Source: Bacteroidota bacterium
GTDB taxonomy: Bacteria; Bacteroidota; Bacteroidia; NS11-12g; UBA955
Reading direction: 5' to 3'
Assembly: GCA_027621365.1 (NCBI GenBank)
Contig: JAQCBH010000001.1
Coordinates: 1 to 64,000, forward strand
DNA length: 64,000 nt
This document shows, piece after piece, positions 16,532 to 17,827 of this stretch. Numbering within the stretch: the stretch's first letter is position 1; each line of letters starts with the position of its first letter. A program made the translations under genes and the position numbers. The notes below the pieces were generated by a model. It did no database searches and was not told the DNA's origin. It saw only the letters and a list, made by a program, of their open reading frames with translations.

Positions 16532-16687
16532 AAGTGTTACGAAGTAGAGTATTTCAGAGCAGCTTATCTGTCCACCGAGACAAAGCTTGCTATGAACCCA
16601 AATCCTGCGAAAACTACTGTCCACCCATGTTTTAAACCCATGTAGGCACGGTTATTTTTTCCTTTCGACTATCCAATAATGACCATG

Positions 16688-16819
16688 GCATAACGTTTTG
16701 CAGCTACCGGAAGGTGGCGATTACGAAGTGCTTCACTATCAATCAAACACAAATTTTAATAGATGCACAAAGCTTCAATTAACCACTGAACCGCCACTTT
16801 TGGGTAGGTGCTGTTATGC
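16688..16819 (-). repeat. attC-like imperfect palindrome, copy 1 (132 bp)
   Basis: Ends GCATAAC/GTTATGC; inner stem about 16 positions (16704-16719 with 16792-16807); same length as and ungapped-alignable to 17678-17809. Confidence 0.7.
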
Positions 16820-16827
16820 GGTTTTTT

Positions 16828-17655
16828 TTATTGTTTAAATAGTTTTTCCATTTCTAATATCCTTTCGGATTTTATAATAAGTCCTAAATTGTTTGGAATC
16901 TGCGACACAGTGATTGGTCTTAATAGGTTTGGTGTCATAATTATTTCCCCTGTTGCTGTCGCTTGTGGTCCAGCGAATAATACTCCAAGAAGTATAATTC
17001 GATTTGCACCCATACACATATTTCCATTCTTATCTTTATAACAACCTTCATTAAAGATTAAAACCGGAGAACCGCTTGAACCTGGAAAGGCAGCTATGTC
17101 AATCATTATTTCCTTTTTACCATTGTAGTCCAACAAAGGGTTTGTAGCTGTAGTTCCCATTCTGAAAATTGGCATATTATTTACCGAATCCCATATTCCA
17201 TTTGGGTAACCAATCATTAAAACGTCTTCAATTGCGGTTAATTCCTCTTTATGTTTGTCTGTTGGTAGAAGGTTTTTTGTGAAAGGAATATAAAACAGTT
17301 TATCACCTCTTTTTGCTGCTTCATTTACAAATGGTGCTATTGACATTGCACAAAGGTCAACGTCTGCTTCGGGATGAAGTCGCCAAAAACTTTCAAAATT
17401 GTCAAAAGCCAAAGTGAAGTGTTGCGTGTCAACAGGCTCACCCTTTTCATTTGCTTTTGTAATGATTAACTTTCCTTTTGCCGCGTTTTTAATTACATGT
17501 TTGTTTGTAACAACAACAGGAACGTGAGTGTTGTTAGTTGTGTCCTCATGGAAATTGAAGAAAAATCCAGTTCCTGTTGAAATTCCTCCAGTCTTAAGCT
17601 CACACTCAATTCTGACTGTCGAATATGTTAGTTGTTCTGAAATTGATAAATTCAT
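16828..17655 (-). CDS. Trypsin-like serine protease (S1-type)
   Basis: VVTNKHVI (His), DVDLCAM (Asp), FPGSSGSPV (Ser) catalytic triad. Confidence 0.85.
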   Translation of the reverse strand: MNLSISEQLTYSTVRIECELKTGGISTGTGFFFNFHEDTTNNTHVPVVVTNKHVIKNAAKGKLIITKANEKGEPVDTQHFTLAFDNFESFWRLHPEADVDLCAMSIAPFVNEAAKRGDKLFYIPFTKNLLPTDKHKEELTAIEDVLMIGYPNGIWDSVNNMPIFRMGTTATNPLLDYNGKKEIMIDIAAFPGSSGSPVLIFNEGCYKDKNGNMCMGANRIILLGVLFAGPQATATGEIIMTPNLLRPITVSQIPNNLGLIIKSERILEMEKLFKQ

Positions 17656-17677
17656 ATTGTCGTCTTTTTAAAATGAC

Positions 17678-17809
17678 GCATAACGGTTTGCGGCTACAAG
17701 AAGTTGGCGATTTCGAAGCACTAAACTGTCTGCCACCACAAAACTTGACACGAAGCACAAAGGTCCATTTAACCACTGAACCGCCAATTTCTTGTAGGTG
17801 CTGTTACAA
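17678..17809 (-). repeat. attC-like imperfect palindrome, copy 2 (132 bp)
   Basis: Ungapped match to 16688-16819, conserved ends and variable centre; inner stem 17694-17709 with 17782-17797. Confidence 0.7.
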
Positions 17810-17827
17810 GCTGAGCTTATTGGGCTG

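Follow-up and report, generated by a model that had tools for sequence, protein, structure and literature searches.

Palindromes bracketing a protease gene in a Bacteroidota genome: very probable attC-type sites of an integron family unlike classical IntI integrons

In classical attC sites, the unpaired spacer has been described as two-sided and some bases as bulged (PMC2727003). The integrase IntI carries an insertion (I2) of about 40 residues, which has been described as essential for integron function, and a survey of tyrosine recombinases reported that this insertion is not fully conserved in the integron-like group (PMC8138268). Bacteroidota are named among the integron-bearing phyla in reviews, without detail (PMC8618304, PMC9668308). 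With IntegronFinder 2.0, only In0 elements had been seen earlier in Bacteroidetes and then one Salinibacter integron (PMC9024848). No description of the Bacteroidota arrays considered here was found in the open literature, preprints and most subscription journals being outside the scope of that search. We have analysed a stretch of 64,000 nucleotides from a Bacteroidota bacterium (contig JAQCBH010000001.1, hereafter the window) and consider it very probable, on sequence evidence alone, that two palindromes in it are attC-type sites of a Bacteroidota integron family unlike the classical IntI integrons. The genome of the window is without the recombinase, and recombination itself is inferred.

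The two imperfect palindromes bracket a gene for a trypsin-like protease. The original prediction described them as two copies of exactly 132 bp which align without gaps and vary in the centre, and gave the distances to the neighbouring genes; all of this was reproduced, with 97 of the 132 positions identical and each copy folding into a long hairpin. The covariance model R1, which was built from diverse relatives of the window sites, recovers the two copies at E=3e-30 and 6e-27. The features of the locus, all on the minus strand, are the following:

16537..16635, minus strand: possible degenerate third site, weak, just downstream of copy 1; next-best R1 match in the window (24.5 bits, E=0.0006)
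16688..16819, minus strand: predicted attC-type site, copy 1, at the downstream end of the protease cassette (R1 with cmsearch, 118.8 bits)
16694..17683, minus strand: inferred cassette, 990 bp from one G|TT cut point to the other (site spacing 990)
16828..17655, minus strand: cassette gene, trypsin-like protease of 275 aa (Trypsin_2, Pfam PF13365, E=7.6e-10), stop 8 nt from copy 1
17678..17809, minus strand: predicted attC-type site, copy 2, closing the upstream lipoprotein unit (cmsearch, 132.3 bits)
17828..18790, minus strand: lipoprotein gene (320 aa, without a match in Pfam) belonging to the preceding unit; 18 nt separate its end from copy 2

In the gene direction, copy 1 has the boxes R'' = GCATAAC and R' = G|TTATGC, and the R' of copy 2 (G|TTATGC) forms the opening of the protease cassette, for which the order TTATGCGTCATTTTAAAAAGACGACAAT-ATG-protease-stop-8 nt-attC is inferred. 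The circle of an integron cassette contains one complete attC, and the start of a linear cassette after G|TT must match the R'' at its own end, not the R'' of the same site. The protease cassette follows this rule in 4 of 5 variable bases (GTTATGCGT to CCGCATAAC), which supports the cassette reading of the original prediction. The protease gene and copy 1 are thus read as one putative cassette, and the window as one cassette with two boundaries and a second, unbounded cassette upstream of it. The start expected for a lipoprotein cassette, GTTACAAGC, is absent from the window and no upstream boundary can be recognised there; TTGTAAC at 20836 and at 21744 was considered as this start and rejected, as it lies in a duplicated flank and the GC is missing. 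Besides the two window sites, no further copies were found in the 2.1-Mb source assembly. It was also observed that positions 19933-21708 hold diverged repeats of the lipoprotein gene region, with three copies of 231 bp that are 61-95% identical. Separately, a leader similar to TTAAAAGACGACA is common to many cassettes, where it separates G|TTANNN from the start codon, as at 17650-17680 (minus strand) of the window.

The anatomy of the sites was derived from their relatives. In the gene direction (the minus strand in the window), R'' reads NNNTAAC and R' reads G|TTANNN; TAAC/GTTA is usual, AAC/GTT is invariant, and the three outer bases are free and not restricted to Y/R. The deviation from RYYYAAC/GTTRRRY, reported in the original prediction as a departure at one position in the window copy, is real and is also general, and the classical R-box criterion is not met by the Bacteroidota sites. 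In 73 sites from platforms (recombinase-linked arrays, see below), the hairpin has TAAC/GTTA at its base (CAAC/GTTG in some sites), followed by a spacer with a 1-nt A on one side (70 of 73) facing 5 nt that end in C. Two equal arms of 20 nt carry a conserved A.C mismatch at position 14 (58 of 73), and their positions 4-5 are frequently mismatched or T.G. The classical criterion of a two-sided unpaired central spacer with extrahelical bases is likewise not met. Covariation was observed in the helices of 24 diverse sites, where 88% of cells are paired against 65% after shuffling and 113 double changes stand against 40, and the signal was sharply lost once the helix partners were slid. The bottom strand is predicted to be the more stable in 53 of the 73 platform sites, and folding of this strand in single-stranded form is an inference.

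Hundreds of relatives of the window sites occur in other Bacteroidota. The exact pattern of the inner arm was found in at least 113 stretches, nearly all titled Bacteroidota, and the matches listed include Flavobacteriales, Cytophagales, Chitinophagales, Sphingobacteriia and Bacteroidales. Nucleotide profiles together with R1 revealed arrays of 3-6 sites per 8-kb locus, on a single strand and with several sequence families interleaved. Each cassette has one main ORF, the longest ORF runs in the array direction in 44 of 48 cassettes, and the distance from ORF end to attC has a median of 20 nt. The search of Bacteroidota proposed with the original prediction thus returned same-strand arrays of essentially single-ORF units, and neither outcome that would have refuted it, copies away from ORF boundaries or a MITE/REP family with its own transposase, was found. 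Sites were present in 146 of 297 Bacteroidota genomes, about half of the sampled species, with up to 61 in one assembly, and in none of 248 Pseudomonadota control genomes when the centre genome of that sample is left out. The centre genome has three sites, all on one small contig, which may be misbinned.

Some sites were met outside this main distribution. R1 sites occur in assemblies titled Ignavibacteria (G320, UBA2373) and Balneola (G321), and therefore the system may reach beyond Bacteroidota. A few matches of the inner-arm pattern lie on IMG/VR contigs, and three IMG/VR contigs classed as viral (L003, L005, L006) bear attC sites of the Bacteroidota type; phages may therefore carry such cassettes.

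The best integron-integrase-like matches in several site-bearing genomes were located 1.5-3 kb upstream of the first site, on the same strand. At E<=1e-70, the recombinase was found in 95 of the 297 Bacteroidota genomes and together with sites in 83 (Fisher p=1e-20). The remaining 63 of the 146 site-bearing genomes gave no match at this strict cut-off, so many arrays have no recombinase or the search missed theirs. Among the matches listed within 40 kb, 20 of 25 recombinases are on the same strand with the array downstream, 4 are divergent and 1 fits neither arrangement. We also noted a shorter, second type of recombinase, of about 280-320 aa, without the N-terminal domain described below and divergent from the array as in classical integrons:

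L173:5183-6019; G216:C7:220569; G040:C33:59635; G059:C33:386917: shorter, divergent recombinase type

The attI position is 50-100 nt past the recombinase gene. In nine platforms, the start expected for the first cassette was located ahead of the first cassette gene and after the recombinase stop, usually no more than 100 nt from that stop, with a 9/9 match to the R'' of the first attC. The complete chromosome of Bacteroidetes bacterium UKL13-3 (CP012155.1) contains four platforms with about 110 bp of attI in common; this stretch ends in ...CTCCTATAAGCTA, and the platforms diverge exactly at G|TTA into different cassettes.

In sequence and fold, the linked tyrosine recombinase is closest to XerA (5hxy, 4a8e) and IntI4 (2a3v). 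The I2 insertion is absent from all measured members and appears as a gap in the alignment to IntI4, and the classical IntI criterion of this insertion in the catalytic domain is therefore not met. From KGxKDR to HxLRH there are 64-69 residues in the Bacteroidota recombinases against 106-107 in 12 IntI; one divergent, long-branched recombinase has 72. Most platform enzymes carry an extra N-terminal domain, modelled (pLDDT 87) as strand-strand-helix-strand-strand-helix. Its best PDB match is the HARP domain of SMARCAL1, which is weak (E=0.2), and the likeness of the model to HARP should be regarded as a lead and not as a result.

In a tree of 34 proteins, IntI forms one clade (support 100/99), and a grouping of this clade with the Bacteroidota recombinases excludes the three Xer proteins (96/87). 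This grouping favours sister lineages over two origins, as far as a tree with few Xer rows allows. That integron function evolved twice, a XerA-like enzyme having independently gained folded-strand recombination with a HARP-like domain doing the job of I2, is conceivable and in our view unlikely. It is very improbable that the palindromes are ordinary attC whose classical IntI integron has disappeared from the source genome. The logic of attC, attI and one-gene cassettes is the same, and the G beside AAC in the bottom strand is found in most classical attC (PMC2727003); however, no recombinase scores above the TIGR02249 IntI cut-off in any of 22 site-bearing genomes, the tree separates IntI with support of 100/99-100, the site architecture differs, and IntI is present in 52 of 249 Pseudomonadota genomes, yet such sites are absent there except in the centre genome.

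The preferred reading is thus a distinct Bacteroidota integron family, and its mechanism can be outlined as a proposal. In complete arrays the head encodes a XerA-like tyrosine recombinase, which would pair attC sites folded from one strand, and pairing of attC with attC would excise a circle with a single gene. Insertion of this circle would take place at the double-stranded attI, which follows the recombinase gene at 50-100 nt, with an inferred cut at G|TTA. The extra N-terminal domain may recognise the folded structure instead of the I2 insertion; this too is inferred, and its only footing is the weak match to HARP.

The search of the source genome yielded only a XerC/D-grade recombinase match (the assembly is 94% complete), and no linked recombinase of the array family was found in it. 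The absence of an integron integrase noted in the original prediction therefore holds for this genome only; elsewhere, arrays adjoin a dedicated recombinase and attI. The window meets the CALIN criteria, since the distance between its two attC is below 4 kb and the genome has no integrase, and because the source genome is without the linked recombinase its locus is read as a small integrase-less cluster, a putative CALIN-like remnant. Two phage-type integrases, at 14691-15929 and 26232-27458, were candidates for the array integrase and were rejected, being of Phage_int_SAM_5 types and far from the linked family in the tree. The former, which also has an arm-DNA-binding domain, more likely belongs to an island at tRNA-Ser. 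The stretch 14251-16484 holds tRNA-Ser and then the phage-type integrase, and similarity to two assemblies of the same genus stops at about 14336, the 3' end of tRNA-Ser (14251-14336), for which reason the window cassettes seem to ride on a genomic island with its own phage-type integrase.

The cassette reading was put to its main test by comparing both ends of each cassette. Read as reverse complement, the bases opening a cassette correspond to the R'' box at its other end. Scored at the five variable box positions, loci found by pattern matched at 5/5 in 40 of 63 adjacent pairs, and platform arrays at 5/5 in 43 of 51 cassettes and at >=4/5 in 48 of 51. In controls, 5/5 matches occurred in only 2 of 148 comparisons within single sites and in 1.9% of random pairs. 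This start/end match is, as read from the sequences, the footprint of an integron cassette circle. Tandem one-gene cassettes, this footprint, attI followed by different cassettes and an array-linked tyrosine recombinase are four features of an integron in the general sense; for a fifth, recombination of attC as a folded bottom strand, the covariation and the predicted strand stability are only indirect signs.

That the sites are MITE/REP-type repeats moved by a transposase, with their intergenic position incidental, might be argued from their dispersed, palindromic and non-coding nature and from their presence in genomes without the recombinase. Nevertheless, matching of start and end across a whole gene is not expected of such repeats, and neither are same-strand arrays with one main ORF each and several site families interleaved, or junctions at attI beside a recombinase gene. 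No transposase family consistently linked to the sites was seen in the array and platform loci, although target duplications were not scored systematically, and we hold this origin to be extremely improbable. Transcription terminators or structured RNAs at gene ends can be practically discounted: long hairpins do lie directly after stop codons, but the sites had no Rfam match at meaningful score, the variable outer boxes are complementary across the cassette and not within the hairpin, and such elements would neither keep matching bases at both gene ends nor set attI junctions. Hardly any weight is left for Xer/pdif-type modules moved by host XerC/XerD at short double-stranded sites. The recombinase does resemble Xer, and pdif modules are frequent on tet(X)-carrying Acinetobacter plasmids (PMC7530245), but the sites are 132 bp with long covarying helices and not 28-bp dif sites, and the arrays are linked to a dedicated recombinase distinct from the genomic XerC/D.

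The Bacteroidota integron family may also bear on tet(X). Published work describes the neighbouring gene as XerD of unknown role and found no integron beside tet(X14) (PMC7473080, PMC7530245). We find that the 'xerD'/tpnF beside tet(X3) and tet(X5) belongs, in 5'-truncated form, to the Bacteroidota recombinase family, with 52.5% identity to the recombinase of locus L049 over residues 150-370. In pHH1107 and Acinetobacter plasmids, tet(X3) comes after this truncated gene:

L195:5998-8127 (pHH1107, FJ012881.1); L199; L198: tet(X3)/tet(X5) directly after the truncated recombinase, at an attI-like junction

A start of G|TTATGTGCC lies between the truncated recombinase and tet(X3), and a truncated attC follows the gene, detected with nhmmer at E=7e-9 and sharing 81% with a known site over 74 nt. 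The tet(X3) start and the R'' downstream of the gene disagree. At the tail of tet(X4), the sequence GGCACATAA complements the start that precedes tet(X3) and is the R'' expected for it, which suggests a shuffling of alleles. From these junctions, tet(X3) appears to sit at the attI of the Bacteroidota family, a possible answer to the question why 'xerD' adjoins tet(X).

Integrons are regarded as rare in Bacteroidetes, yet sites are found in about half of the sampled species. As the arrays are linked to recombinases without the supposedly essential insertion, the question of how folded sites are recognised becomes directly testable. The cassettes include several defence-type genes; those at L170-L184 encode PADLOC HEC-05, PDC-S20, PDC-S02, AbiLi, a type II methyltransferase and a DUF1016 nuclease.

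Compared with classical integrons (class 1, the Vibrio superintegron), the Bacteroidota family has in common one-gene cassettes, arrays in the same direction, palindromic covarying sites, an inferred cut at G|TT, a cassette start complementary to the R'' at its own end and attI beside the integrase gene. It differs in a recombinase without the ~40-residue IntI insertion and usually with an extra N-terminal domain, in a spacer of 1 nt vs 5 nt that is not two-sided, with a conserved A.C mismatch and no bulged bases, and in the placing of attI at the recombinase gene's 3' end, from where the cassettes run in the direction of that gene (a minority being divergent). The window resembles CALIN in the short distance (below 4 kb) between its two attC and in the lack of an integrase in the genome, and is unlike CALIN in that its sites are of the Bacteroidota type. 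Unlike XerA and other Xer proteins, the Bacteroidota recombinases are linked to cassette arrays and have N-terminal domain(s) that are absent from Xer.
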